A stretch of DNA of 49,019 nt from Arthrobacter sp. RIT-PI-e (GTDB lineage Bacteria > Actinomycetota > Actinomycetes > Actinomycetales > Micrococcaceae): NCBI RefSeq assembly GCF_001187915.1, contig NZ_LGIU01000054.1, positions 1 through 49,019 of the forward strand, written 5' to 3'. The position numbers were made by a program, and so were the translations under genes. How positions within the stretch are numbered: the stretch's first letter is position 1; every line of letters begins with the position of its first letter. Shown piece after piece: positions 11,403 to 24,976 of this stretch. The notes beneath the pieces are model-generated. The model was not told the DNA's origin and made no database searches. It was given only the letters and a program-made list of their open reading frames with translations.

Positions 11403-12266
11403 ATGATCCACTTGCGCGACCAGCAGGCTGATGATCTGTTGGGGATCGTGAGCCTCGATGATGCAGGAACCAGTACGCGCAGGCGTCCGCCCGCAGGCAC
11501 GCCGGCAGCGACGGCGTGCACCACGACGGACGGCGCCCCCGCAGGGCCTTCCCTCAAAGCAGCCCTCCGGGACGACATCGCCCTGCGTCATCTGGAGATC
11601 GCCGAATCGGTGGCGCGCTCCTTCGCCGTCGCCGGTCCCGAGGCCCCGGACATCCGGCAGGTCGCCTACCTCGGCCTCATCAAGGCGGTGCAGCGCTTCG
11701 ACCCCTCCCGCGGGGTGCCCTTCGCCTCCTTCGCGCTGCCCACCATCACCGGGGAGATCAAGCGCTACCTGCGCGACTCCTGCTGGGTCATCCGCCCGCC
11801 GCGGGACGTCCAGGACCTCAGAACGGAGATCACGCGGACGGCCCCCGCCCTGGCACAGCGGCTGGGCCGGGAGGCCACCGCACGTGAGCTCGCGGTGGAG
11901 CTGGGGTGTCCGGAGAGCAAGGTCCTCGAAGCGCAGATCTCCCACACCAGCCTCCGCCCCGACTCCCTCGACGTCCCGTTCGAGGGCCGCAGCTGGGGCG
12001 ACACCCTCGCCGCGGACCTCCATGGGACGGAGCGCAGCGACGACATGATCTCGCTGCGCGGGGCCGTCAACGAGCTGGACGGGGCGGAGAAGGAGCTCCT
12101 GTACCGCCGGTACTTCATGGAGCAGACGCAGCAGGCCATCGCCGACGACCTCGGGATGTCGCAGATGCAGGTCTCCCGGATGCTCGCGCGGATCCTGGTA
12201 ACGCTGCAGAAGCGGCTGCTGGAGGCACCCGCCCCGCAGGGCGTGCACTCGTCGCGGACCGGCTGA
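11403..12266 (+). CDS. SigB/SigF-like alternative sigma factor
   Basis: A 287-residue group 3 sigma-70 factor of the stress/sporulation class. Region 2 covers the block DIRQVAYLGLIKAVQRFDPSRGVPF with FASFALPTITGEIKRYLRD. Region 3 carries RPPRDVQDLRTEITR and the LGREATARELAVELG helix-turn-helix. Region 4 ends with the promoter-recognition helix QQAIADDLGMSQMQVSRML. The first 45 residues are variable and Thr/Ala-rich; the start at 11403 lacks a good ribosome binding site and an internal GTG is possible. No anti-sigma or anti-anti-sigma gene is adjacent, which is unusual for this class. The 11348-11371 region (CTTT, 14 bases, GGGAAG) weakly resembles its own kind of promoter. Promoter-like elements of this class also precede nearby glycan genes. 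Confidence 0.92.
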   Translation: MIHLRDQQADDLLGIVSLDDAGTSTRRRPPAGTPAATACTTTDGAPAGPSLKAALRDDIALRHLEIAESVARSFAVAGPEAPDIRQVAYLGLIKAVQRFDPSRGVPFASFALPTITGEIKRYLRDSCWVIRPPRDVQDLRTEITRTAPALAQRLGREATARELAVELGCPESKVLEAQISHTSLRPDSLDVPFEGRSWGDTLAADLHGTERSDDMISLRGAVNELDGAEKELLYRRYFMEQTQQAIADDLGMSQMQVSRMLARILVTLQKRLLEAPAPQGVHSSRTG

Positions 12267-12314: not shown

Positions 12315-13334
12315 TCAGGAGATCCCGTGGTCGGCCGCGGCGGCGAGGACCTGCTCCACGGTGACGGCCAGCAGTGCGGGATCGGGCAGGGGGGAGAACG
12401 TCTCGCCCACCCGCACCGACTCGTCCGTGAGCACCGTGTGGGGTCCGGGCGGCGGCCCCCAGGCCGATGGCGGCGCCGGCCCGAACAGCACCACGGACGG
12501 GCGTGCGTAGGCGGAGGCCAGGTGCGCGGCGCCGGTGTCGGCGGAGATCACCAGGGCCGCGCCGGAGATCAGCCCGGCGAACCGATCGAGAGTCAGCCTG
12601 CCCGCCGCGACGGAGTCCTCGGGCAGTCCGGCCGCGTCCGCGACGGCGAGCGCGCGGGGGCGTTCCTTCTCGCTGCCGGTGAAGAGCACCCGGTGGCCGG
12701 AATCCGCCAGCACGCGGGCCACCGCGGCGAACCGCTCCACCGGCCAGAGCCTGCTGCCGTAGGCGGCACCCACGTGGATGACGACGGCGCCGGGCGCCGG
12801 GCTCCCGCCCTCGGGTACGAGCAGCCCGCAGTCCAGGGGATCGGCGGGTACCCCGTGCCAGCTGACCAGCGAGGCCCAGCGTTCCCGCTCGAGGGCGCCG
12901 TCGTGCCACCGAGGGCCGTCCCACCCGGGCGCGCGGTACCCCATGCGCCGTTGCGCACCGATCGCCTCCAGCCGGCCCCTGCTCTCGGCGCCGTTGCCGT
13001 GGAGGTTCACGGCGATCTCGATCCGCCCGTGCTCGACGGGCAGCGGGTCGTCGAGGCCGTGGGTGGGCAGGAGATCGTCGACCGCCCCGGTGAGGGCGAT
13101 GACGGGGCGGAGCCACTCCTGGGCGGCGTAGAGGATCCGGTGCTCCGGGAAGGCCCGCCGGAGTCCCTTGAGCGCCGGGACCGCCACCAGGAGGTCGCCG
13201 AGTTTCAGCGCGCGCAGGGCGAGGATCTCGGGGCGTCCGTCGGGTGCGGGTGTGGACGCCGGGACGGTGGCGGTCTGTTCCGGCGCAGGCCGGGCGCTCG
13301 TGGTGGAGGTGCCCTCGGGAGTCATGGGCCTCAT
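12315..13334 (-). CDS. Glycosyltransferase family 9 protein (heptosyltransferase-like)
   Basis: A 339-residue GT-B enzyme of the ADP-heptose:LPS heptosyltransferase family. After a Thr/Pro/Ala-rich N-terminal 35 residues, the fold opens with LALRALKLGDLLVAVPALKGL (family pattern R-x3-GD-x3-P). The donor-site block ISADTGAAHLASAYARPSVVLFGP near residues 262-285 is the GT9 hallmark. In LPS producers the family adds heptose to lipid A-core; here the acceptor must be another surface polymer. M1 and M4 are both plausible starts, and neither has a strong ribosome binding site. It is divergent from the HAD gene, with a shared 121-base control region, and convergent with the sigma factor gene. It is one of three GT9 proteins in this locus. 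Confidence 0.9.
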   Translation of the reverse strand: MRPMTPEGTSTTSARPAPEQTATVPASTPAPDGRPEILALRALKLGDLLVAVPALKGLRRAFPEHRILYAAQEWLRPVIALTGAVDDLLPTHGLDDPLPVEHGRIEIAVNLHGNGAESRGRLEAIGAQRRMGYRAPGWDGPRWHDGALERERWASLVSWHGVPADPLDCGLLVPEGGSPAPGAVVIHVGAAYGSRLWPVERFAAVARVLADSGHRVLFTGSEKERPRALAVADAAGLPEDSVAAGRLTLDRFAGLISGAALVISADTGAAHLASAYARPSVVLFGPAPPSAWGPPPGPHTVLTDESVRVGETFSPLPDPALLAVTVEQVLAAAADHGIS

Positions 13335-13420
13335 CCTGCCAGAGGTTGGCGGGAGCGCCCCGTTCCGGGTGCGGCGGGGAGGCGGAGGGCAGGCGGGGGA
13401 GAAGAAGTTCGGTGCAAAGT

Positions 13421-13446
13421 GTTTAGTAGTGCTCCTTCCCGGGAAC
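13421..13446 (+). promoter_or_regulatory. SigB/SigF-type promoter candidate for the glycan operon
   Basis: GTTT (13421-13424), a 16-base spacer and GGGAAC (13441-13446) lie 9 bases before the ATG of the first operon gene. Actinobacterial SigF/SigB promoters follow GTTT-N15-17-GGGTA or a GGGAA variant. Initiation would fall within a few bases of the start codon, and no ribosome binding site is present, so the transcript may be leaderless. Confidence 0.5.
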
Positions 13447-13455
13447 TAAGCCTGT

Positions 13456-14004
13456 ATGCATACTTCGCCCGAGCCGGCGCCCCCGGCGCCGCAGGCGGTC
13501 CTCCTGGACCGGGACGGCACCATCGTGGTGGACGTCCCCTACAACGGTGACCCCGACCTCGTCCAGCCCATGCCGGGTGCGCGCGAGGTGCTCGACGGGC
13601 TCCGCGGCCGCGGTGTCCGGCTCGGTGTGGTGACCAACCAGTCCGGCATAGCCCGCGGCTACGTCACCCGCGACCAGGTCGATGCCGTCAATGCCCGCGT
13701 GGAGGAGCTGCTCGGCCCGTTCGAGGTGTGGGAGGTCTGCCCGCACGGCCCGGAGGACGGGTGCGGATGCCGGAAACCCGGTCCGGGCATGGTGCTCTCC
13801 GCCTGCGCACGCCTGGGGCTGGAGCCGTCCGAGGTGGCCCTGATCGGGGACATCGGCGCGGACATGGGCGCCGCCGTCGCGGCCGGCGCCAGGAGCGTGC
13901 TGGTGCCCACCGACATCACGCTCGAGGAGGAGGTCCTCGCGGCCCCGGCGGTGGCCCGGGACCTCGCCGGAGCCGTCCGCCTCCTCGGGGTGGGGGCCTC
14001 GTGA
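13456..14004 (+). CDS. HAD-IIIA phosphatase, GmhB-like (heptose bisphosphate phosphatase)
   Basis: A 182-residue HAD-superfamily phosphatase resembling D-glycero-D-manno-heptose 1,7-bisphosphate 7-phosphatase and the histidinol-phosphatase domain. Motif I is LLDRDGTIV, with the nucleophile Asp and the acid/base Asp two residues later. Motif II is VVTNQSGIARG. The zinc-binding loop CPHGPEDGCGC is followed by RKPGPGM, and motif III/IV is LIGDIGADMGAAVAAG, where the more usual spelling is GDxxxD. The CRKPxPGM segment and zinc loop are typical of GmhB. It starts a tight forward operon and its TGA overlaps the GTG of the next gene. With the SIS and HldE genes downstream it completes a heptose-activation set. 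Confidence 0.88.
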   Translation: MHTSPEPAPPAPQAVLLDRDGTIVVDVPYNGDPDLVQPMPGAREVLDGLRGRGVRLGVVTNQSGIARGYVTRDQVDAVNARVEELLGPFEVWEVCPHGPEDGCGCRKPGPGMVLSACARLGLEPSEVALIGDIGADMGAAVAAGARSVLVPTDITLEEEVLAAPAVARDLAGAVRLLGVGAS

Positions 14005-15104
14005 GGCGACGCGTGCTGGTGGCGCGCCTGGACAGCGCCGGGGACGTGCTCCTCGCCGGCCCCGCCGTCCGGGCCGTGGCCGCCGGTGACCACGGGGACG
14101 CACCGAACGACGTCGTCATGCTGTGCGGGCCGCAGGGTGCCGCCGCGGCGCGGATCCTGCCCGGCGTCGTCGACGTCATCACCTGGGCGGCCCCCTGGAC
14201 CGTGGACCCCGCACCCGCGCCCACCGCGGAGCACATGGCGGAACTGCACGACGCCGTGGTGGCCCTGGACGTGGACGAGGCCGTGATCCTGACCTCGTTC
14301 CACCAGTCCCCCCTGCCCCTCGCGCTCCAGCTGAGGCTGGCCGGTGTGCGGCGGATCGCCGGCGCGTCCGTGGACTACGCCGGGTCCCTCCTCGACGTCC
14401 GGCTGAAGCCCGGCGAGGACTTCCCGGAGGACCAGCCCGAGGCCGAACGCGCGCTCGGCATCGCCGAGGCCGCCGGGTACGCCCTGCCGTCCGGGGACGA
14501 CGGCCGGCTGCAGGTCACCCGGCTGGAGGACGCCTCGGACCTCGTGGGCGCGGGCCCCTACGGGGCGGTGCACCCCGGGGCGGCCGTCCCGGCACGCGCC
14601 TGGCCGCCGTTGCCCCACGCCGCGGCCGTGGAGCTGCTCACCGCGGCGGGTTTCCGCGTGGTGGTGACCGGTGGCCCCGGTGAGACGGAGCTGACCTCCA
14701 CCGTCGCCGGTCCGGAGGCGCTGGACCTGGGCGGGCGGACGGCGCTGCCGCTGCTGGGGTCCGTCCTCGCGGGGGCGTCCGGGGTGATCACCGGCAACAC
14801 CGGCCCGGCGCACCTCGCCGCCGCCGTGGGAACACCGGTGGTGTGCCTCTTCCCCCCGGTGGTGCCGGCCGTCCGCGGGGCGCCCTACCGGGTGCCGGTG
14901 GAGCTGCTCGGCGACCAGGACGCCGCCTGCGCCCTCAGCCGGGCGCGCATCTGCCCGGTGCAGGGCCATCCCTGCCTGTCCGACGTCTCGCCCGAGAACG
15001 TGGTGGACGCCGTCCTCCGGCTCAGCTCCGGGGTGTCGTCCCTGGGGTCACGCCGCACCATCGGCCGTACGGACGGCCGCAGAACCGTGAGGGGAGATCG
15101 ATGA
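14001..15104 (+). CDS. Glycosyltransferase family 9 protein (second copy)
   Basis: A 367-residue heptosyltransferase-like GT-B enzyme. The start is GTG at 14001, whose GTGA overlaps the stop of the HAD gene. It opens with RVLVARLDSAGDVLLAGPAVRAV, the GT9 N-terminal pattern. The donor-site segment is ITGNTGPAHLAAAVGTPVVCLFPP near residues 255-278, and HPGAAVPARAWPP is the central acceptor/donor hinge. The C-terminal tail contains two Cys (ICPVQGHPC), a motif seen in many GT9 proteins. The last bases overlap the ATG of the next glycosyltransferase (ATGA). Donor and acceptor are inferred from the neighbours, not read from sequence. Confidence 0.88.
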   Translation: MRRRVLVARLDSAGDVLLAGPAVRAVAAGDHGDAPNDVVMLCGPQGAAAARILPGVVDVITWAAPWTVDPAPAPTAEHMAELHDAVVALDVDEAVILTSFHQSPLPLALQLRLAGVRRIAGASVDYAGSLLDVRLKPGEDFPEDQPEAERALGIAEAAGYALPSGDDGRLQVTRLEDASDLVGAGPYGAVHPGAAVPARAWPPLPHAAAVELLTAAGFRVVVTGGPGETELTSTVAGPEALDLGGRTALPLLGSVLAGASGVITGNTGPAHLAAAVGTPVVCLFPPVVPAVRGAPYRVPVELLGDQDAACALSRARICPVQGHPCLSDVSPENVVDAVLRLSSGVSSLGSRRTIGRTDGRRTVRGDR

Positions 15105-16102
15105 GGATCCTGCTGTGGCACGTGCACGGGGGCTGGACCGACGCCTTCGTGCGGGGGACGCACACCTACCTGCTGCCCACCACGCCCGACGGCGGTGCGT
15201 GGGGTCTCGGTCGCGCGGGCAGGGACTGGCCCGGCTCCGTGGTCGAGATCCACCCCGCCGATCTCGCGGACGCCGACGTCGACGTCGTCGTGCTGCAGCG
15301 GGTCGAGGAGATCGCCGAGTGCGAGCGGCTCCTCGGGCGGACCCCGGGCCGGGATCTGCCGGCGGTGTTCCTCGAGCACAACACCCCGCGCCGCGACATC
15401 GTGGGCACGGTGCACCCGCTGGCGGACCAGACGGAGATCCCCGTGCTGCACGTCACGCACTTCAACGAGCTGTTCTGGGACAACGGGAGCGCGCGCACCC
15501 GCGTGATCGAGCACGGCATCGTCGATCCCGGGTACCTCTACACCGGTGACCTGGAGCAGTTCGCCGCGGTGATCAACGAACCCGTGCGGCGGGGCCGGAT
15601 CACCGGGACGGACCTGCTGCCGCGCTTCGCCGGGGTGGCCCCGCTGGAGGTCTTCGGCATGGGGACGGACGGTCTCGCGGACGCCCTGGACCTCGGCCCG
15701 GGTGAACTGCTGATCGGCGGGGACCTGCCCATGGCACAACTGCACGCGCGGCTGGGCCGTTCCCGGGCGTACGTCCACCCTCTGCGGTGGACCTCGCTCG
15801 GGCTCTCGCTCCTGGAGGCCATGCACGTGGGGTTGCCGGTGCTGGCACTGGCCACCACGGAGGCCGCCCGCGCCGTGCCGCCCGAGGCGGGGGCGATCTC
15901 CACCAGGATCGACGACCTCGTGCGGGCCGCGGCACGCATGATCGAGGATCCGGGGGCAGCCCGGGCCCGGGGGCTGGTGGCACGGGAGGCGGCACTCGCC
16001 CGGTACGGACTGGCCCGCTTCCTCGCCGACTGGGACGAGGTCCTCGCGGAGGAACCGGGACGGGGACCGGTGCTGGCGGTAACGGAAAGGGGAGCACGAT
16101 GA
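15101..16102 (+). CDS. Glycosyltransferase (GT4-like)
   Basis: A 333-residue predicted GT-B glycosyltransferase. The ATG at 15101 has GGGGAG upstream and overlaps the previous stop as ATGA. The N-terminal half begins [24 protein letters not shown], and VFLEHNTPR is the usual end of a Rossmann strand. The C-terminal half contains the family-typical [21 protein letters not shown] near residues 230-250, matching the E-x7-E nucleotide-sugar region in relaxed form. It is shorter than most GT4 enzymes and has only moderate similarity to characterised ones, so the sugar is unknown. It sits between a GT9 and a larger GT4 in one operon. Confidence 0.82.
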
Positions 16103-17391
16103 AGATCTCGATGGTGTCGGAGCACGCGAGCCCGCTCGCGGCGTTGGGAGGCGTGGACGCGGGTGGGCAGAACGTCCATGTCGCGGAGCTCTCGCTCGCC
16201 CTGGCCCGCCGCGGCCACGAGGTGACCGTATATACGCGCCGGGACGACGCCGCGCTGCCGGACCGGGTGCGGACCGACCCGCTGCTCGAGGTGGTGCACG
16301 TCACCGCCGGGCCCGCGCACAACGTGCCGAAGGACCAGCTGCTGCCCTACATGGCCGAGTTCGCGACGGGGATCGTGGCCGACTGGGGCGAGGATCCGCC
16401 GGACATCGTGCACGGGCACTTCTGGATGTCCGGCCTCGCCGCCCTCGATGCCGCCCGGCAGGCCAGGACCGCCGGCCGGCAGGTCCAGGTGATCCAGACC
16501 TTCCACGCCCTCGGCTCCGTCAAGCGGCGCCACCAGGGCGCGGAGGACACCAGCCCCTCCGAGCGGTTGATGCTCGAGACGATGGTGGGACGCAGCGCCG
16601 ACCGGGTGATCGCGACCTGCTCGGACGAGGTCTTCGAGCTGAAGGCGCTCGGCGTACCGGTCGGCCAGATCTCGATCGCACCGTGCGGTGTGGATCTGGA
16701 CCTCTTCATGCCCCGGGGGCCCGTGGAGTCGCGCGGGCGGGCGCACCGGATCGTCAGCGTGGGCCGGCTGGTGCCGCGGAAGGGCATGGACCTCGTGATC
16801 CGGGCCCTGCGCGAGCTGGCGGACCTCGGCCGCACCGACGTCGAGCTCGTGATCGTGGGTGGTGCCGGCAACGCGGTGCGCCTGGAGGAGGATCCCGAGG
16901 CGCGGCGGCTCCTCGCCCTGGCCGCGGACCTCGGGGTGTCCGACCGCGTGGTCCTGCGGGGTCAGGTCTCCCGCGCCGAGATGCCGGCGGTGCTGCGCAG
17001 CGCCGACGCCGTGGTGTGCGCGCCCTGGTACGAGCCCTTCGGCATCGTGCCGCTCGAGGCGATGGCCTGCGGTGTGCCCGTGGTGGCGGCCGCCGTCGGC
17101 GGGCTGGTGGACACCGTGGTGGACGGCACGACCGGTCTGCACGTGCCTCCCGAGGATCCCGCCGCGCTGGCCGCGGCGATCGAGCGGGTGGTGGCCGATC
17201 CGGACTGGGGCCGCCGGCTGGGCGACGACGGTTACCGCCGGGTCCGGGCCCGGTACTCGTGGAGCCGCATCGCGGCGGACACGGAGAAGGCGTACCAGAG
17301 CGCCCTCGGTGCGGCAGCGCCCGCCGAAAGGGCCACCGCGCGGCGGAGCGCCGCGCGTCGACTCGAGAGCACGGGGGGCAGGGCACTGTGA
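16099..17391 (+). CDS. Glycosyltransferase family 4 protein
   Basis: A 430-residue retaining GT-B glycosyltransferase. The N-terminal [26 protein letters not shown] loop is the donor/acceptor glycine-rich segment seen in MshA- and sucrose-synthase-like enzymes. [19 protein letters not shown] opens the donor domain near residue 220. The E-x7-E motif is [24 protein letters not shown] near residues 313-336. The ATG at 16099 overlaps the previous stop as ATGA and has AAAGGGGAG upstream. The overlap with the next gene (GTGA) again suggests translational coupling. The C-terminal 25 residues are Ala/Arg-rich and probably disordered. The role is inferred as addition of a sugar to the glycan built by this locus. 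Confidence 0.92.
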
Positions 17392-18086
17392 CAACGCATC
17401 TTCCAGAGGTCCGGACGGCGGGATCGGCGATCCCGGTGACACCGGAAGGCCGTACGGCCGAGCCGGTGCAACCGGTACAGGACGCCGGGGCGGCCCGCTT
17501 CGATCCGCGCCGGCTCGTGCTGGAGCACCTCGACGCGGTCACGCCCGCGCTCGAGTCCCTCGCATCCAACGCCGACACGCTCGCTACCTGGGGGGTGGAG
17601 CTGGCCGAACGGCTGCTGGCCGGTCAGCGCCTGCTGGCGGCCGGGAACGGCGGGGCCGCCGCCCCGGCCCCGCACCCCCCCGCCGCGCTCGTGGGTCGGT
17701 TCGACGGCGAGCGCGACCCGTTCTCCGCGATCTCGCTGCACGCCGAGAGCTCCGCCGTCACGGCGATCGCCAACGACTACGGGTTCGACCCCCTCTTCGC
17801 GCGTCAGGTGAAGGCCCACGGCCGCGCCGGTGACGTCCTGGTGCTGCTCAGCACGAGCGGCAGGAGCGCGAACCTCCTCCACGCCGTGGATGCGGCACGC
17901 GCGATCGGCATCACCACCTGGGCGCTGACCGGTGCGGGCCCCAACCCGCTGACCGATCGCGTGGACGAGCACGTGGCGATCGACGCCCGCTCGGCGAACG
18001 CGCAGGAGGGCCATCTGATCGCCCTCCACGCGATGTGCCGTGCCTTCGACGCCGCCGTCGCCCACCGGCGGGAGGCGCAGCGATGA
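17388..18086 (+). CDS. SIS-domain protein, GmhA-like (phosphoheptose isomerase) with altered active-site loop
   Basis: A 232-residue sugar-phosphate isomerase fold resembling GmhA, which converts sedoheptulose 7-phosphate to D-glycero-D-manno-heptose 7-phosphate. The start is GTG at 17388, overlapping the previous stop as GTGA; the first 40 residues are a non-conserved tail. The phosphate-binding segments GNGG (residues 86-89) and [15 protein letters not shown] are present, and the C-terminal [11 protein letters not shown] supplies the expected His. The loop after GNGG reads [16 protein letters not shown], whereas the family has roughly SxxDAQHFAEELxGRF. The catalytic Glu before the VGRF segment is Ala, and the Asp/Gln are Pro. 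The DNA there (17,655-17,690) is almost pure C and G. This is either sequencing error or an inactive paralogue. Confidence 0.82.
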
Positions 18087-19450
18087 GGATCGTCGTCGTC
18101 GGGGACGTGCTGCTGGACACCGACCTGTCCGGGGGCGCCGGGCGGCTCTCACCGGACGCGCCCGTGCCCGTGGTGGACGTCGACCGCGTGCAGCGCCGTG
18201 CCGGGGGTGCCGGGCTCGTGGCACGGATGCTCGCCGCGGACGGTCATGACACCGTGCTGGTCACGGTGCTCGGGGAGGACGACGCCGCGACCCTGCTCCG
18301 CACGGAGCTCGACGGCGTGACGGTGGTGTCCGGTCCGTCCGGCGCGCCGACCCCCGTGAAAACCCGCGTGCGGGCTTCCGGGCAGCCGGTGGTGCGCTTC
18401 GACGAGGGATGCGCGACACCACCGGTCCCCGCCGTCCCCGCAGCACTGCTCGCAGCACTCGACGGGGCGGCCGCCGTCGTCGCCGCCGACTACGGTCGCG
18501 GTCTGCTCGCCAACGACGAGCTCCGGGCACGCCTGGAGACACTCGCGGCGTCCGTCCCCGTGGTCTGGGACCCCCACCCCGCCGGCGCGCAGCCGGGCCC
18601 CGGCGCCGCGGCCGTCCCCCCGAACATCGGCGAGGCGCTGCGCTTCTCCGGCGTCGAGGGTTCCGGTACCTCCGCGGCCGCCGCGGCGGCGGAGGTGCTG
18701 CTCGACCGCTGGCGCAGCCGCGCCGTGCTCGTCACCATGGGGGAGCAGGGGGCCCTGGTCTCCGCCGCCGGACTCCTGCCCCAGGTGGTCCCCGCGCCGA
18801 AGGTGACGGCGGCGGACCCGTGCGGGGCCGGGGACCGCTTCGCCTCCGCGCTCGCCGTCGCCCTCGCCGGCGGTGCCGCCGTCGACGCCGCCACGCAGCA
18901 GGCCGCGGAGGCCGCCGCCCTGTTCCTCGGCTCGGGGGGCGTGGGTGCCATGGGCCGCAGGCGCGACAAGGCGCCGGAGCAGCTGCCGGTGGACGGACTG
19001 GACGCGCTGAACGTGGTCCGCCGGACCCGGGAGGCCGGCGGCACAGTGGTGGCCACCGGAGGGTGCTTCGACCTCCTCCACGCCGGGCACGCCCGGACGG
19101 TCGCGGCGGCGCGGGGCCTCGGGGACGGCCTGATCGTCTGCCTGAACTCCGACGAGTCCGTGCGCGGGCTCAAGGGGGAGAGCAGGCCGATCATCAAGCA
19201 GGAGGACCGCGCCGAGCTCCTCGCTGCCCTGGAGTGCGTGGACGCCGTCCTGGTCTTCGGCGAGTCGACACCGGAGAACGCGATCTCCCGCCTCCAGCCC
19301 GACATTTGGGTCAAGGGCGGCGACTACGCCGCGGAGGACCTCCCGGAGGCCACCCTCATGAGCAGCTGGGGTGGGCGGACGGTCACCGTGCCCTACATCC
19401 CCGCCCGCTCCACCACGAAACTCGCAGCCGCCCTCGCCCGCGTGGGCTGA
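18083..19450 (+). CDS. Bifunctional heptose kinase/nucleotidyltransferase, HldE-like (first copy)
   Basis: A 455-residue two-domain protein. Residues 1-300 are a ribokinase-family (PfkB) domain with the HldE-type segment RLSPDAPVPVVDVDRV, the GGAG substrate loop, and the phosphoryl-transfer motif DPCGAGDRF near residue 250. Residues about 315-455 are a cytidylyltransferase-like domain with GGCFDLLHAGHARTV, a HxGH motif. In LPS producers HldE phosphorylates heptose 7-phosphate at C1 and then attaches AMP. The ATG at 18083 overlaps the SIS gene stop (ATGA). Compared with the second copy at 23,056, the kinase motif and linker differ and the Ala content is higher, so the two may act on different sugars. 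Confidence 0.9.
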   Translation: MRIVVVGDVLLDTDLSGGAGRLSPDAPVPVVDVDRVQRRAGGAGLVARMLAADGHDTVLVTVLGEDDAATLLRTELDGVTVVSGPSGAPTPVKTRVRASGQPVVRFDEGCATPPVPAVPAALLAALDGAAAVVAADYGRGLLANDELRARLETLAASVPVVWDPHPAGAQPGPGAAAVPPNIGEALRFSGVEGSGTSAAAAAAEVLLDRWRSRAVLVTMGEQGALVSAAGLLPQVVPAPKVTAADPCGAGDRFASALAVALAGGAAVDAATQQAAEAAALFLGSGGVGAMGRRRDKAPEQLPVDGLDALNVVRRTREAGGTVVATGGCFDLLHAGHARTVAAARGLGDGLIVCLNSDESVRGLKGESRPIIKQEDRAELLAALECVDAVLVFGESTPENAISRLQPDIWVKGGDYAAEDLPEATLMSSWGGRTVTVPYIPARSTTKLAAALARVG

Positions 19451-19505
19451 GCGGCTGCAGACCTGCGCCCGGTGTCATCGGGCGGACGCAACGAAAGGAA
19501 CGAAC

Positions 19506-20219
19506 ATGACGGAGAACGCATCGGCCAGTGGCTTCAACCCGGGACGCGTCCTGGTGACCGGAGGGGGCTCCGGTCTCGGAGCGGCGATCGTCCAGGGCGT
19601 GCTCGCCGCGGGCGGCACCCCGGTGGTCCTGGACCGCGACATCAGCCGCGTCAGCGGGGTCAAGGCCTACGAGGTGGACGTCGCCGACCGCGAGGCCGTG
19701 GAGAAGGCGGTCAAGGAGGCCGCGGAGACCCTGGACGGACTCGACGCCGTGGTCACCGCCGCCGGGATCGACCGCTGCGGGGCGCTGGACACGGTGCCGG
19801 CGGACCAGTGGGAGAAGGTGATCGGCGTGAACCTCATGGGCACGGCGTCCACCGCCCGCGCGGCGCTGCCCTACCTCAAGCAGACCCACGGCCGCGTGGT
19901 CACCATCGCCTCCACGCTCGGCATCAAGGCCGTGGGCGACGCCACCGCGTACTGCGCGTCCAAGTTCGGCGTCATGGGCTTCTCGCAGGCCCTCGCCGCC
20001 GAGACCACCGGTCAGATCGGCGTCACCACGATCATCCCCGGCGGCATGAAGACCCGCTTCTTCGACGACCGCGACGAGCAGTACAAGCCGCAGGACGACT
20101 CCCGCCTGAACGACCCCGAGCGCGTGGCCGAGGCGATTCTCTTCGCGCTCTCACAGCCCAGGAGCTGCGAGATCCGCGAGATGGTCATCGCCCACGCAGA
20201 AGAAGGCTCGTGGCCCTGA
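19506..20219 (+). CDS. Classical short-chain dehydrogenase/reductase in the glycan operon
   Basis: A 237-residue NAD(P)-dependent SDR. The cofactor motif TGGGSGLG is near residue 17, AAGID stands at the NNAG position, and the catalytic Tyr/Lys are in AYCASKFG near residue 148. The ATG at 19506 has GAAAGGAAC upstream, 55 bases after the first HldE gene. It is a classical SDR, not an extended one, so it is not an HldD heptose epimerase. It could reduce or oxidise a sugar intermediate or be unrelated to sugars. Its last 35 bases overlap the convergent GT9 gene. Confidence 0.9.
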   Translation: MTENASASGFNPGRVLVTGGGSGLGAAIVQGVLAAGGTPVVLDRDISRVSGVKAYEVDVADREAVEKAVKEAAETLDGLDAVVTAAGIDRCGALDTVPADQWEKVIGVNLMGTASTARAALPYLKQTHGRVVTIASTLGIKAVGDATAYCASKFGVMGFSQALAAETTGQIGVTTIIPGGMKTRFFDDRDEQYKPQDDSRLNDPERVAEAILFALSQPRSCEIREMVIAHAEEGSWP

Positions 20220-21336
20220 GTTCGGCGACGTCCGCGTAGACGGCGTCGGGCCGGACGGCGGAGACCAGTGAGTCGTCGTGCTCGCAGCGTTCCGCCGTCC
20301 AGCCCACCTGGGTGACGTCCACCCCGCAGACGGGACACGCGATCACCCAGGCGAGGTGGACGCGGTGGAAGGTACGGCCGATCGCCCCGGCGTTGATCAT
20401 GTTGCCCACCCAGTACACGCCCACCGTCGGCGTGCCCACCGCCTGGGCCAGGTGGCGCGGTCCGCTGTCGTTGCCCACCATCACCGCACTGCGGTCCAGC
20501 ACCCCCGTGAGCTCACCCAGGCCCAGCGTCCCGGCGAGGGAGCGGACGTCCGCGCCCGGGGACACCTCGAGGGCCAGCCGAACGATCTCCTCGGCCATCG
20601 GCACGTCCGTGGCGTCCCCCACCACCACCACCTCGCACCCCTCCGCGGCGGCCCGGACGGCGACCTCCGCGAAGGACGACGCCGGCCAGCGGCGCCGGGG
20701 GTCGGTGGCGCCGGGGTGCAGGGTGACCACGGTGCCGTCCCCGGTCAGCGCGGCGGCCGCATCCACCTCCTCGGGGCGGACCTCCACGCGCGGTTCGAGG
20801 TCCACGGCCACGGCGCCGGCCAGACCCACCACCTCCAGGGCGCGGAACACCTCGTGCTGGTAGTAGACGTACGGGACGGTGCGCTCCAGCTCCGCCGCAT
20901 CGGGCGTCCGCGTACCGATCGTGTGCCGGGCGCCCAGCCGCAGCAGGAACGGGTTCGAGTTGCGGCCGCCCCCGTGCAGCTGCGCGGCGAGGTCGAACCG
21001 GCCGCGCACGTCCTCGAAGAACGCCTCGACCGCCGCCGGATCGGGTTCACCGGGCCGCACGCCGGGGGAGACGGGTAGCTCCACGACGGCGGACACCGGA
21101 CCGGGCCGGCCGCTCAGGAGCGCCGCGTGCGCGGGCATCCCCAGGAGGGTGATCTCCGCCTCCGGGTAGCGGTCCTTCAGCGCCGCGATGGCCGGTAGGG
21201 CGAACATGAGGTCCCCGAGGCCGCCCCCGCGCAGCACGGCGATGTGCCGTACGTCCTCGAAGGGGGCGAACACGGGGCCCACGGAACGGGCCGTGCCGTG
21301 GCGCCCGCCGAGGTCCGCCGTCGTCTCCTGGCGCAT
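20185..21336 (-). CDS. Glycosyltransferase family 9 protein (third copy)
   Basis: A 383-residue heptosyltransferase-like enzyme. It opens with HIAVLRGGGLGDLMFALPAIAALKDRYP, and the donor site is VGNDSGPRHLAQAVGTPTVGVYW near residues 285-307. The tail has paired Cys (ACPVCGVDVTQVGWTAERC) that could bind a metal or form a disulfide. The ATG at 21336 is fixed by GGGAAGGA; upstream in-frame starts would add a Gly/Asn-rich stretch with no ribosome binding site. The gene runs opposite to the rest of the cluster, is convergent with the SDR by a 35-base overlap, and is divergent from the aldehyde dehydrogenase gene across about 310 bases. Confidence 0.9.
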   Translation of the reverse strand: MRQETTADLGGRHGTARSVGPVFAPFEDVRHIAVLRGGGLGDLMFALPAIAALKDRYPEAEITLLGMPAHAALLSGRPGPVSAVVELPVSPGVRPGEPDPAAVEAFFEDVRGRFDLAAQLHGGGRNSNPFLLRLGARHTIGTRTPDAAELERTVPYVYYQHEVFRALEVVGLAGAVAVDLEPRVEVRPEEVDAAAALTGDGTVVTLHPGATDPRRRWPASSFAEVAVRAAAEGCEVVVVGDATDVPMAEEIVRLALEVSPGADVRSLAGTLGLGELTGVLDRSAVMVGNDSGPRHLAQAVGTPTVGVYWVGNMINAGAIGRTFHRVHLAWVIACPVCGVDVTQVGWTAERCEHDDSLVSAVRPDAVYADVAELRATSLLLRGR

Positions 21337-21550
21337 GATGTCCTTCCCGTTCCTGTCCTGGCCCGTGTTCCGGGGTCCGTTCCCGGCCGCTGCCGATCCC
21401 GTGCCGTGTCCCGCACCCGGCACCGCGGTGCCGGGTGTCGTGCCGGCGGAGCCGCGGATCCGCCCGGCTCCCCGGCCACACTATGCCAGGCGCGCCGAGG
21501 AGGAGTCCCGACCATGTCCCGCCCTCGGCCCGGGTATTTGCCCCCGGACT

Positions 21551-21576
21551 GTGTGAAGGATCGGCGGCCTGGGTAT
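21551..21576 (+). promoter_or_regulatory. SigB/SigF-type promoter candidate before the aldehyde dehydrogenase
   Basis: GTGT (21551-21554), 16 bases, then GGGTAT (21571-21576). This is the same 16-base spacing as the element before the HAD gene, with the textbook GGGTAT -10 sequence of stress sigma factors. Initiation would be about 65 bases before the aldehyde dehydrogenase ATG. Apart from this element, the divergent 21,337-21,646 region shows only a weak TAGTGT-type box toward the GT9 gene. Confidence 0.55.
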
Positions 21577-21646
21577 GGGAAGAGTAGCCGTGCACCCGGT
21601 TGCGGCGGGTGGCACGGCCACAGGCAGGACGACGACGAGGAGCACC

Positions 21647-23056
21647 ATGTCCGGCATGACCCAGGAGAGCCCCCTGCTGCAGGTGGAGGGCGAGCGGTCC
21701 ATCACCATCCAGGACCCCCGGGACGGCAGCGACGTGGGCACGCTCGCCTGCGCCGACCGTGAGCAGGTGGCGCTCGCCGTCCCCCTCGCCCGCACCGTGC
21801 ACCCCGAATGGGCGGCCACCAGCCCCGCCGAGCGCGGAGCGGCGCTCCGGCGTGCAGCGGCGGCGCTCCGGGCCGGTGCGCAGGACCTCGCCGAACTCAA
21901 CACCCGGGAGACCGGCAAACCGCTCGAGGACGCACTGGGCGGTATCGAGGCGGGGATCTCCACCCTCGAGCAGTACGCGGAACTGGGCCCCGTGCATCGC
22001 GGGCTGAGCCTGCGCGGGGCGGTCCTCGCCACCGACTACACCGTGGCGGAACCACGCGGCGTCGCCGTGCTGCTGACACCGTGGAACGATCCGGTGGCCG
22101 TGGCGGCAGGGCTGATCGGGGCCGCGCTGGTGACCGGCAACACTGTGATCCACAAGCCGAGCGAACGCTGCCCCCACGTGGGTGCGCTGCTCGGACGCCT
22201 GCTGCAGCCGGCCTTCCCTCCCGGGGTGTTCACGACGCTGACCGGCGATGCGGGGACGGGACACCTGCTGACCACGGAATCCGGCGTGGACGTCTTCGCG
22301 CACGTGGGTTCCAGTGCCACCGGTGCGCGGATCGCGCGGGCCGCGGCCCTGACCGGCGCCCACGTGATCAGGGAGAACGGCGGCAACGACCCCCTGCTCG
22401 TCGACGCCGACGTGGATCCGGTGTGGGCGGCGGGTCAGGCCGCCCTGGGTGCCTTCGCGAACAGCGGCCAGATCTGCACGTCCGTGGAGCGCATCTACGT
22501 GCACCGCGACATCGCCGAGCCATTCCTCGCGGCGCTCACCGAGGAGGCCCGGAGCAGGAACGCCGGGAGCTTCGCCCCCCTGGTGGACCGGCGCATGCGC
22601 CGTGTCGTGGACGAGCAGGTGGGTGAGGCACTCACCCTCGGAGCGACGTGCCTGGAGGGCGGTGCCGTCCCGGACGGACCGGGCGCCCACTACCCGGCCA
22701 CCGTGCTCACCGACTGCACCGAGGCGATGACCCTCATGACCGAGGAGACCTTCGGCCCGGTGGCCCCGGTGACGGTGGTGGACAGCTTCGAGGACGGGCT
22801 CCGGCTCGCCGCCGCGGGCCCGTACGGGCTGGCGGCCTCCGTCCTCACCGGGAGCATCGCGCACGCGCAGCAGGCGATCGCCGGCCTGAGCGTGGGGACG
22901 GTCAAGGTCAATGCCGTCTTCGGCGGGGCACCCGGAGGCGCCGCGCAGCCGCGCGGCATCAGCGGTGCGGGCTTCGGGTACGGTCCGGAGCTGCTGGACG
23001 AGTTCGCCCTCGTGAAGGTGGTCCACATCAGCACACCGCCGGCGAGGGCGCACTGA
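21647..23056 (+). CDS. Aldehyde dehydrogenase family protein
   Basis: A 469-residue NAD(P)-dependent aldehyde dehydrogenase. NAD-site blocks include VAVLLTPWNDPVAVAAGLIGAAL and NTVIHKPSERCP. The catalytic Glu is in the ENGGND segment, where family members usually have ELGGND, and the catalytic Cys is in FANSGQICTSVERIYV near residue 278. The C-terminal TEETFGPVAPV block is intact. The ATG at 21647 is chosen because GAGGAGC lies just upstream; an in-frame ATG at 21575 sits on the promoter-like element. The stop and the ATG of the second HldE gene overlap (TGATG), so the two are co-translated. The substrate is unknown; a sugar-derived aldehyde is a guess from context. Confidence 0.92.
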   Translation: MSGMTQESPLLQVEGERSITIQDPRDGSDVGTLACADREQVALAVPLARTVHPEWAATSPAERGAALRRAAAALRAGAQDLAELNTRETGKPLEDALGGIEAGISTLEQYAELGPVHRGLSLRGAVLATDYTVAEPRGVAVLLTPWNDPVAVAAGLIGAALVTGNTVIHKPSERCPHVGALLGRLLQPAFPPGVFTTLTGDAGTGHLLTTESGVDVFAHVGSSATGARIARAAALTGAHVIRENGGNDPLLVDADVDPVWAAGQAALGAFANSGQICTSVERIYVHRDIAEPFLAALTEEARSRNAGSFAPLVDRRMRRVVDEQVGEALTLGATCLEGGAVPDGPGAHYPATVLTDCTEAMTLMTEETFGPVAPVTVVDSFEDGLRLAAAGPYGLAASVLTGSIAHAQQAIAGLSVGTVKVNAVFGGAPGGAAQPRGISGAGFGYGPELLDEFALVKVVHISTPPARAH

Positions 23057-24582
23057 TGGAGGAGGCGGTCGACGGCGCGCACGGTGAGCTGTCCGAGGTC
23101 CGCGGACCCGCGGCCTGGCTGCCGGCCGCCATCGCCGACCGCGCACCCCGCGTCACCGTGGTGGGCGACGCCATGCTGGACGGCTGGTGGAGCGGCACCA
23201 TCGAGCGTTTCTGCCGGGAGGCACCGGCCCCGGTGGTGGACATCACCCGCCGGGACTACGCCGCCGGTGGGGCGGCCAACACGGCCATGAACCTCGCGGC
23301 GCTGGGCGCACGCGTGCGCATGTGCGGGTTGATCGGGGACGACGACGCCGGTACACGGCTGCGGGCCCTCCTCGACTCCGCCGGTGTGGACACCACCGAC
23401 CTGCTGCAGGATCCGCGGGTGTCCACCACCACCAAGTACCGGATCCTGGGCGGTGACCAGGTGATGCTGCGGCTGGACGACACCCAGGACCGGGTGCCGG
23501 TGGCGGCGGTCGAGGCCCTGGCCGCCCGGGTACCGCACGCCGTCGCCGGTGCGGACGCGGTGATGGTCTGCGACTACGGCTCCGGCGCGCTCGGCGGACC
23601 GGTGCGGGAGGTCCTCGGGCGGGCCGGGATGATCGCTCCCGCCACCCTCGTGGTGGTGGACGCCCACGACACCGCGGCGTGGTGCTCCCTGAACCCGGAC
23701 ATCGTCACCCCGAACGCACAGGAGGCCGAGCAGGTCCTCGCCCTGCGCCTGGATCCGCGCACGGACCGCTCCGCCGTGGTGGGGCAGCACCGGGAGCGGC
23801 TGCTCGCCGCGACCAACGCGGCGGCCGTGGTGGTGACCCTGGACCGTGACGGCACGGTCCTGCTCGCCCGCGACGGCGAGGTGCACCGCACCTGGGCGCG
23901 TCCGGCCACCGAGAAGCAGGCCTCCGGGGCGGGCGACACCTTCGTGGCGAGCCTCACGGCGGCCAGGGCTGTGGGGCTGCCGCTCACCACGAGCCTGGAC
24001 CTGGCCCAGGCCGCGGCCGACGTCGTGGTCCACCGCCCCGGCACCTCGGTGTGCACCACCGCCGATCTCACCTCCCACCTGCAGCAGGTCGCCGACACGG
24101 CGTTATCCACCCCCGAGCTCCTGCGCGAGGTCGCGGCCCACCGGGCGGCGGGGCGGCGGATCGTGCTCACCAACGGGTGCTTCGACGTGCTGCACCGCGG
24201 CCACACCCGGTACCTGAACCAGGCCAAGCAGCTGGGCGACATCCTGGTGGTGGCCCTCAACGACGACGCCGGTGTGCGCAGGCTCAAGGGCCCGGACCGC
24301 CCGATCAACCCGATCGCGGACCGCGCGGGGGTCATTGCCTCCCTGAGCTGCGTGGACTACGTCACCGTGTTCGACACCGACACCCTGGTACCCCTGATCG
24401 AGCAGCTGAGGCCGGACGTGTACGCCAAGGGCGGCGACTACACGGCCCAGATGCTCGAGGAGACCCCCGCCGTGGAGGCGTGCGGCGGCAGGGTGAGCAT
24501 CCTCGACTACGTGCCCGAGCGGTCGACGGCGGCCGTGGTGCGGCGGATCCGGGCCACACCGCTCGCCGAGGACGCCCCGTGA
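23056..24582 (+). CDS. Bifunctional heptose kinase/nucleotidyltransferase, HldE-like (second copy)
   Basis: A 508-residue two-domain protein. The kinase domain (residues about 30-330) starts VTVVGDAMLDGWWSGTIERFCREAPAPVVDI, has the GGAANTAMNLAALGA substrate loop and the phosphoryl-transfer motif ASGAGDTF. The transferase domain (about 370-508) has LTNGCFDVLHRGHTRYLNQAKQLGD, VALNDDAGVRRLKGPDRPINP and RPDVYAKGGDYT, which is very close to canonical HldE. It is the more typical of the two HldE proteins in the window and probably makes ADP-D-glycero-D-manno-heptose. The ATG at 23056 overlaps the aldehyde dehydrogenase stop. A short hairpin follows at 24,613. Confidence 0.93.
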   Translation: MEEAVDGAHGELSEVRGPAAWLPAAIADRAPRVTVVGDAMLDGWWSGTIERFCREAPAPVVDITRRDYAAGGAANTAMNLAALGARVRMCGLIGDDDAGTRLRALLDSAGVDTTDLLQDPRVSTTTKYRILGGDQVMLRLDDTQDRVPVAAVEALAARVPHAVAGADAVMVCDYGSGALGGPVREVLGRAGMIAPATLVVVDAHDTAAWCSLNPDIVTPNAQEAEQVLALRLDPRTDRSAVVGQHRERLLAATNAAAVVVTLDRDGTVLLARDGEVHRTWARPATEKQASGAGDTFVASLTAARAVGLPLTTSLDLAQAAADVVVHRPGTSVCTTADLTSHLQQVADTALSTPELLREVAAHRAAGRRIVLTNGCFDVLHRGHTRYLNQAKQLGDILVVALNDDAGVRRLKGPDRPINPIADRAGVIASLSCVDYVTVFDTDTLVPLIEQLRPDVYAKGGDYTAQMLEETPAVEACGGRVSILDYVPERSTAAVVRRIRATPLAEDAP

Positions 24583-24612
24583 GCTGACATCGCTCGGGGA
24601 CAGGGGCCCCGA

Positions 24613-24628
24613 CGCCTCCGGTGAGGCG
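24613..24628 (+). terminator. Small hairpin after the second HldE gene
   Basis: CGCCTC, loop CGGT, GAGGCG, extended by flanking G and C bases, lies 30 bases after the stop codon. There is no T-run. It is a weak terminator candidate for the aldehyde dehydrogenase-HldE unit. Confidence 0.4.
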
Positions 24629-24787
24629 CCAGGCATGGATCTCCCCTCGGGTGCGCTGCACCCGGACGGGATGCTCATCACGGTGCCGGACCGTGACACA
24701 GACACTGCCCGGGTGGTCCCCGGGCCAGTGACGGCCCTCCCGTCCGGGAGTGCCGTGCGGAACCGAAGCGACACGAAGGAGCACACC

Positions 24788-24976
24788 ATGGCAGATCCGA
24801 GTCCCATCGACATCCAGAAGGCCCTGGGCGGCATGGAGTACCCGGCGTCCAAGGCGGACATCGTCTCCCACGCGAAGGACAAGGGCGCCGACGACGCCGT
24901 CCTCGACGCCCTCAACGGTCTCCCGGACCGGGAGTACGATTCGCCCACGGACGTGAACAAGGAAGCCTCCAACTAG
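24788..24976 (+). CDS. Small DUF2795-like protein
   Basis: A 62-residue protein. PSPIDIQKALGGMEYPASKADIVSHAKDKGADDAVLDALNGLPDREYDSPTDVNKEA matches the compact helical DUF2795 pattern: an L-x-G-M-x-YPASK core followed by a run ending in LxxLPDREY. The function of the family is unknown; members are often annotated in actinobacteria as small acidic proteins. The ATG is fixed by GAAGGAG upstream; the longer open frame before it has no coding character. A strong terminator follows immediately, so it is its own unit. Confidence 0.88.
   Translation: MADPSPIDIQKALGGMEYPASKADIVSHAKDKGADDAVLDALNGLPDREYDSPTDVNKEASN

Follow-up and report, generated by a model that had tools for sequence, protein, structure and literature searches.

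A heptose-enzyme gene cluster in Arthrobacter sp. RIT-PI-e resembles the Streptomyces cwg operon and probably directs the synthesis of a cell-envelope glycan

In the Gram-negative pathway for lipopolysaccharide (LPS), adenosine diphosphate (ADP)-heptose is made by GmhA, HldE, GmhB and HldD. Here we compare that pathway, and the actinobacterial systems closest to it, with a cluster of eleven genes at positions 12315-24582 of a 49,019-nucleotide stretch of Arthrobacter sp. RIT-PI-e (contig NZ_LGIU01000054.1; "the window" hereafter means this whole stretch). Enzymes for nucleoside diphosphate (NDP)-heptose have already been described across kingdoms, with actinobacterial tridomain enzymes and septacidin included (PMC11461863, PMC11573728, PMC10948575), and NDP-heptoses are ligands of the immune sensor ALPK1 (PMC11461863, PMC11573728). 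The motif (F/L)XXGRSTT marks nucleotidyltransferases that also use cytidine and uridine triphosphates (CTP and UTP) (PMC11573728), and it is not strictly needed for that promiscuity (PMC11461863); a 2024 commentary called the physiological roles of the corresponding cytidine and uridine diphosphate (CDP- and UDP-) heptoses elusive (PMC11573728). In Streptomyces coelicolor, SCO6179-6190 (cwgA-L) form a vancomycin-induced 12-gene operon for a predicted cell wall glycan, with one promoter that is partly sigma-E dependent (PMC6767563). Published product names assign transferases to cwgB, cwgC, cwgE, cwgG and cwgJ, a dehydratase to cwgD, a phosphoheptose isomerase to cwgH (SCO6186) and a bifunctional synthase/transferase to cwgI (SCO6187) (PMC5839063); cwgE (SCO6183) is termed a putative heptosyl transferase (PMC5882110), and cwgA is raised by salt (PMC13011467). 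NDP-heptose synthesis in actinobacteria is thus already published, whereas the cwg product is still described as predicted. In a Frankia paper, the only mention is of an "ADP-heptose:LPS heptosyltransferase" that salt raises. Our literature search, which mostly did not reach subscription papers and is therefore weak evidence of absence, found no paper tying cwg to NDP-heptose beyond the gene names and none describing a Micrococcales version.

Based on our findings, we propose that the Arthrobacter locus is probably an enlarged cwg-type cluster, and that its product is most likely a heptose-containing envelope glycan derived from NDP-D-glycero-D-manno-heptose. Custom gene callers supplied the gene list of the window and that of the Streptomyces-type locus discussed below, and domains were called with Pfam profiles (ten of the eleven proteins, all but HldE2) and NCBIfam profiles (all but the aldehyde dehydrogenase). 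The eleven open reading frames (ORFs; Table 1) are those named by an initial annotation made from the sequence alone: a GmhB-type and a GmhA-type protein, two HldE-type proteins (HldE1 and HldE2), three GT9 and two GT4 glycosyltransferases, a short-chain dehydrogenase/reductase (SDR) and an aldehyde dehydrogenase (ALDH). Its actinobacterial host was likewise right, the host being a member of the Micrococcaceae close to Arthrobacter agilis (the top named match of HldE1 is 88% identical), and the resemblance to the vancomycin-induced cwg operon now adds weight to the non-LPS surface-glycan role that it suggested. It did not recognise the cwg-type nature of the cluster or its occurrence in many actinobacteria.

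The link to Streptomyces runs through the locus L175 in genome G529, whose HldE shares up to 96% identity with named Streptomyces proteins. L175 has an array of 12 co-directional genes (epimerase, carbamoyltransferase, GT2, HAD, GT9, GT4, GT4, SIS, HldE, GT9, GT2, GT2), which holds seven of the eight core families described below, SDR excepted; its HAD frame was called at 357 residues, longer than that of the window. This array fits the S. coelicolor cwg operon, the match being one of gene order and, where given, published product names rather than of S. coelicolor sequence, and the envelope role that we suggest is carried over from the regulation described in Streptomyces. The order HAD-GT9-GT4-GT4-SIS-HldE is common to the window and L175. 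In our HldE tree of 65 rows, HldE1 and 25 of the 26 HldE rows from phylum loci form one clade (support 100/100), which contains the HldE proteins of the Streptomyces-type loci L170, L175 and L182; HldE2 falls outside it. The two layouts also differ: a GT9 gene adjoins HldE in L175, whereas in the window GT9a is encoded at the opposite end and on the other strand, and the window locus lacks the epimerase, carbamoyltransferase and GT2 but adds SDR, ALDH, HldE2 and GT9c. Neither an epimerase/dehydratase nor a carbamoyltransferase or GT2 was seen in the part of the window gene list that was scanned by eye, no carbamoyltransferase was found in the genome, and L170, L175 and L182 gave no SDR match.

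Conservation of the locus was followed in 110 loci, comprising the best 80 of 362 named relatives and 30 stretches from 29 of the 43 phylum genomes with a match. Genes were assigned by their best-matching window query at a minimum coverage of 40%, a procedure that may mislabel paralogues among the GT9 and GT4 proteins; contig ends truncate several loci, and one (L189) had no match, leaving 109 in the core and order lists. An eight-gene core of GmhB, GT9b, GT4a, GT4b, GmhA, HldE1, SDR and GT9a is complete in 81 of the 110 loci when the SDR is at least 45% identical (67 of the 80 named loci and 14 of the 29 phylum loci with any match); the figure is 85 if any SDR match is allowed, and the seven families without SDR are found together in 87. 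GT9a is the best-assigned match in 97 of the 109 loci with any match. Gene order, whose comparison across Micrococcaceae was proposed with the initial annotation, is also kept: GmhB-GT9b-GT4a-GT4b-GmhA-HldE1 runs on one strand in 81 of the 93 loci that hold all six genes, and the remaining 12 have one or both GT4 genes moved. Chance is excluded because the six-gene order is conserved to this extent. The whole window arrangement also occurs in Arthrobacter, Curtobacterium, Amnibacterium, Aeromicrobium, Goodfellowiella and Kutzneria, and the GT4a homologues among the 120 best listed include ones named Arthrobacter, Aeromicrobium, Corynebacterium and Propionibacterium. The trait is patchy across genomes: HldE1 was matched at E <=1e-40 in 43 of 396 phylum genomes, the window's own included, and TIGR02199 at E <=1e-36 in 56 of the 197 genomes of the window's family, where a single TIGR02199 match is not necessarily this cluster. 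Many family genomes have a second TIGR02199 match nearby (about 5 kb away in G018 and G038, farther in some).

Among the conserved neighbours, GT2, carbamoyltransferase, epimerase and sugar-nucleotide dehydrogenase genes were seen by eye, with a Pfam check on the L175 copies; clustering of unassigned frames is noisy in high-GC DNA (merged components, antisense shadows), and no counts were drawn from it. Outside Micrococcales, several loci have carbamoyltransferase and sugar-nucleotide genes next to the core (by eye; in L175 by Pfam), and the glycan is therefore probably decorated in other ways in other lineages. Mobile islands were considered and rejected: part of HldE1 matches in 7 plasmid records, none with more than 80% coverage (best 79%), and 3 phage-collection records match only about 28-29% of it. 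On the Streptomyces plasmid pFRL3 (L190, 914-12060), a 656-residue rfaE2 is accompanied by radical SAM, P450, SHMT, GT9 and carbamoyltransferase genes; this region looks like a separate heptose natural-product cluster in a different setting. A second plasmid match that was inspected, from Embleya, carries no annotation at that place. A 9.5-kb contig labelled Vibrio cholerae strain 35D (L100, WNZI01000075.1) carries an Arthrobacter-type cluster with an HldE1 82% identical to that of the window, and it is most likely a contaminated assembly; L100 was kept in the GmhB and GmhA residue, core and order counts and omitted from the HldE motif, near-invariant-position, tree, co-occurrence and MshA-residue analyses.

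The assignment of the enzymes to their families is well supported by the profile matches. HldE1 has PfkB and CTP_transf_like domains, and the full-length HldE model (equivalog cut-off 521) spans both domains at 283 bits in HldE1 and 362 bits in HldE2; the next kinase families are far weaker (ribokinase, 61 for HldE1; hexose kinase, 73 for HldE2), and the nucleotidyltransferase domain of HldE2 exceeds its own cut-off (185.8 vs 181.5). Both paralogues retain the HldE motifs. GmhA scores 68 bits against SIS_2, 146 and 128 bits against phosphoheptose isomerase models, which is below the equivalog cut-offs, and also matches phosphoheptose isomerases in the PDB. GmhB matches HAD families in Pfam, and its best NCBIfam model, heptose-bisphosphate phosphatase, is reached under the equivalog cut-off. 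Only the broader HAD-IIIA and histidinol-phosphatase-domain cut-offs are exceeded, and its substrate is therefore not fixed by the models. The equivalents of E. coli GmhB D11, D13, C92, H94, C107, C109, R110, K111 and D136 are identical in the window and in 75 of 75 orthologues. In the GmhA orthologues, the equivalents of E. coli H61, E65, Q172 and H180 are retained in 44 of 44 and that of D169 is altered in all 44.

Taking these matches together, the route from sedoheptulose 7-phosphate to NDP-heptose is supported as complete by homology. The heptose activation expected in the initial annotation stands to that extent, and it has to be qualified in two respects: the nucleotide is perhaps not only ADP, and the window GmhA has no Glu65 equivalent. 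The absence of HldD that it reported was confirmed by a profile search, in which no protein of the genome exceeded the cut-off (best 87 bits vs 274.6); other extended-SDR genes are sited elsewhere in the genome. Compared with the Gram-negative LPS pathway, the window has homologues of three of the enzymes, with the catalytic motifs present in the family, but it has no HldD over the cut-off, two HldE proteins and an actinobacterial host. Actinobacterial tridomain NDP-heptose synthetases were reportedly presented by Tang et al. in 2022. The window shares predicted isomerase, kinase and nucleotidyltransferase functions with these synthetases and the septacidin route, its gmhA and HldE1 genes being adjacent with a 4-base overlap, and a fused GmhA-HldE is found in L171; in the window, however, the functions would reside in separate proteins, encoded amid glycosyltransferases.

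HldE2, one of the additions relative to the Streptomyces layout, forms a separate clade (support 100/99) on the E. coli side of the tree, a side made unsure by the long branches of E. coli and L187. Among 95 loci that span 16.9 kb or more and match HldE1, GT9c occurs in 54 of the 58 that have HldE2 vs 1 of the 37 that lack it, GT2 in 43 of 58 vs 0 of 37, and ALDH in 42 of 58 vs 15 of 37, all counted without regard to kinship. From this co-occurrence, HldE2, GT9c and GT2 appear to form a module that enlarges the cluster: the tree gives the second HldE a lineage of its own, and the counts tie GT9c and a GT2 to it. In relatives the GT2 gene follows HldE2. The flanking matches are 51 bases apart in the window vs 765 in L037, positions 24633-24728 align with the last 90-96 bases of the relatives' GT2 gene, and the relatives' GT2 protein has no match anywhere in the window's own genome. 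The GT2 of the window therefore looks deleted, with its 3' end left behind.

We suggest a plausible scheme for the assembly of the glycan. The kinase half of HldE1 (and of HldE2) would form the 1,7-bisphosphate, GmhB would take off the 7-phosphate, and the nucleotidyltransferase half would then yield NDP-heptose; lacking HldD, the pathway would probably leave the sugar as the D-glycero form, unless it is a substrate of the SDR. A short heptose-containing oligosaccharide could then be built by GT9a, GT9b, GT4a and GT4b; HldE2 and GT9c (and GT2 in relatives) may extend it with a further branch or cap, and one of the sugar carbons may be oxidised or reduced by SDR and ALDH. The final product would probably be a glycan of the cell envelope, in line with the prediction for Streptomyces cwg. 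The reactions, linkage order, carrier, export route and envelope location in this scheme are what we infer from the observed gene identities, order, conservation, lineages and residues. If the scheme is right, the link between cwg and NDP-heptose enzymes, together with the widespread Actinomycetota core, would point to a concrete, testable product, would widen the likely heptose makers beyond LPS, and would offer a candidate role for CDP- and UDP-heptose.

Several observations weigh against a heptose-containing envelope glycan made by a cwg-type cluster. Most of the family matches lie under the NCBIfam equivalog cut-offs, the cwg operon was recognised by order and product names, and the co-occurrence counts ignore kinship. 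The window GmhA has an alanine at the equivalent of E. coli Glu65, unlike all 44 orthologues, and a second GmhA was not found in the genome. By eye, and with no dedicated family search, no exporter, flippase, polymerase or ligase was recognised in the cluster or its conserved neighbours (33 of the 80 named loci and the phylum loci). SCO6185 (cwgG) is among the most stable S. coelicolor transcripts (PMC4630627), which sits uneasily with a strongly stress-induced operon; this and the stricter core count (81, not 85) slightly lowered our confidence.

The GmhA substitution raises the possibility that the pathway is decaying in this strain, with GmhA inactive, GT2 deleted and no complete product. 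Five of 65 near-invariant positions deviate in the window GmhA, all inside 11 residues and with the E65 equivalent among them, and both the GT2 remnant and the lack of a second GmhA would agree with decay. However, the reading frame of gmhA is intact, among 867 near-invariant positions in the remaining ten proteins of the cluster only 4 deviate, and in a dense patch at 17600-17720 each amino-acid-changing codon gains G or C relative to each of three relatives checked. Such tight clustering, together with the G/C gains and the intact frame, favours a sequence error over a real loss of GmhA; the patch is perhaps a local sequencing or assembly error, and decay of the pathway appears rather unlikely to us. 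As assembled, the residue set of the ADP-heptose pathway is complete in GmhB and both HldE proteins but not in the window GmhA, which lacks the Glu65 equivalent although the residues match in 44 of 44 orthologues.

With no exporter or polymerase identified by eye, the glycoside might stay soluble or inside the cell, and the product could be a small heptoside, soluble, intracellular or secreted (a compatible solute, a thiol-like compound or a natural-product glycoside), for which GT4b would act on a phosphorylated small acceptor before a phosphatase step. The best solved chains for GT4b are Tll1590 (235 bits) and 3c4q/3c48 (170 bits), which we take to be a sucrose-phosphate synthase and Corynebacterium MshA, respectively. 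At the equivalents of MshA K78 and R154, assumed here to bind the acceptor phosphate, all 75 GT4b orthologues have K and R, and a phosphorylated acceptor is possible for GT4b; in the same 75 orthologues, however, the equivalents of Y110 and T134 are changed throughout. The vancomycin-induced cwg operon and the three GT9 proteins point instead to the envelope, and we regard a small heptoside as unlikely. In the GT9 proteins PF01075 scores 82, 64 and 90 bits (cut-off 22), and their genes are the sole GT9 matches at E <=0.001 in the genome. GT4b is not the mycothiol enzyme MshA itself, as the genome's MshA is encoded on contig C94 (487 bits; cut-off 462.5) and GT4b reaches only 246. The nearest solved chains of ALDH are aldehyde dehydrogenase A and betaine aldehyde dehydrogenases.

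Within the envelope-glycan reading, the donor nucleotide may differ from that of the LPS pathway. The stretch corresponding to the motif of the promiscuous STTR5 enzyme reads YIPARSTT in the window HldE1 and YVPERSTA in HldE2; the stretches were read in 13 of the 80 named loci. Both window proteins share the arginine with STTR5-type enzymes, and some HldE1 orthologues (e.g. L052) match the full motif, but the other motif positions differ in the window HldE1 and HldE2. Arginine precedes the ST motif in 76 of 79 HldE1 orthologues, whereas the HldE2 family more often has histidine at the same place (30 of 58; arginine in 19 of 58). Because the HldE1 family has the CDP/UDP-linked arginine, the nucleotide need not be ADP only, and HldE1 is perhaps not limited to ADP. 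One could go further and suppose that the two HldE lineages make two activated heptoses, HldE1 supplying CDP- or UDP-heptose to the core glycosyltransferases and HldE2 supplying ADP-heptose to GT9c, and that the result is a mixed heptoglycan with one heptose oxidised to an acid by SDR and ALDH. This extension is speculative and, in our estimate, quite improbable; if true, CDP/UDP-heptose would gain a first physiological role, and the cwg glycan would be identified as a heptoglycan widespread in Actinomycetota. We consider it very unlikely that the enzymes act on some other sugar phosphate (that of another heptose stereoisomer, or of an octose like those in certain antibiotic pathways) and that D-glycero-D-manno-heptose is only a family label: the sub-equivalog scores, the broader models passed by GmhB and the distinct lineage of HldE1, 34.5% identical to E. 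coli HldE, would allow it, but the motifs of GmhB, the GmhA orthologues and HldE match the E. coli enzymes and the four steps are co-located.

The tight packing described by the initial annotation holds in part. There are 4-base overlaps at five junctions and a 1-base overlap between ALDH and HldE2; a 55-base gap separates HldE1 from SDR, and GT9a and GT9c lie on the minus strand, the other nine genes being on the plus strand. SDR and GT9c are convergent and overlap by 35 bases. A single operon for all eleven genes is ruled out by the two minus-strand genes. A sigma-factor gene at 11403-12266 is convergent to GT9a, which argues against co-transcription; it lies no more than 253 bases from the core in 39 of 109 loci, and we keep it as an observation only, not as a component of the system.

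Table 1. Coordinates and supporting evidence for the features of the cluster (positions in the window).
Feature	Position	Strand	Evidence
GT9a, heptosyltransferase-family glycosyltransferase, cwgJ-like by position	12315..13334	-	PF01075 82 bits; LPS heptosyltransferase I model 85 bits (cut-off 185)
Divergent intergenic region, 121 bases; candidate promoter site, likely for GT9a and the GmhB operon	13335..13455		Position only
GmhB-like HAD phosphatase, cwgD-like by position	13456..14004	+	Heptose-bisphosphate phosphatase model 119 bits; conserved residues
GT9b glycosyltransferase, cwgE-like by position	14001..15104	+	PF01075 63.5 bits; conserved order
GT4a, divergent GT4 glycosyltransferase, cwgF-like by position	15101..16102	+	PF00534 35 bits
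GT4b, sucrose-phosphate-synthase/MshA-type glycosyltransferase, cwgG-like by position	16099..17391	+	Pfam GT4 domain; nearest solved chains
GmhA-like SIS sedoheptulose-7-phosphate isomerase, cwgH-like by position; aberrant active-site stretch in assembly	17388..18086	+	Pfam, NCBIfam and PDB matches
HldE1, putative bifunctional heptose kinase/nucleotidyltransferase, cwgI-like	18083..19450	+	Full-length HldE 283 bits; clade; Arg before ST motif
Classical SDR	19506..20219	+	PF00106 135.5 bits; at least 45% identity in most core loci
GT9c glycosyltransferase, HldE2 module	20185..21336	-	PF01075 90 bits; co-occurrence with HldE2
ALDH; alternative in-frame starts 21575, 21656	21647..23056	+	PF00171 343 bits
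HldE2, putative second bifunctional heptose kinase/nucleotidyltransferase, separate lineage	23056..24582	+	Full-length HldE 362 bits; own clade
Junction with deleted-looking GT2	24583..24728		GT2 gene present there in relatives; alignment of 3' remnant

Beyond HldE2, a small conserved ORF at 24635-24976 lies between the cluster and a cation-transporter-like gene; it is also present in relatives, and its called start overlaps the remnant of the deleted-looking GT2.

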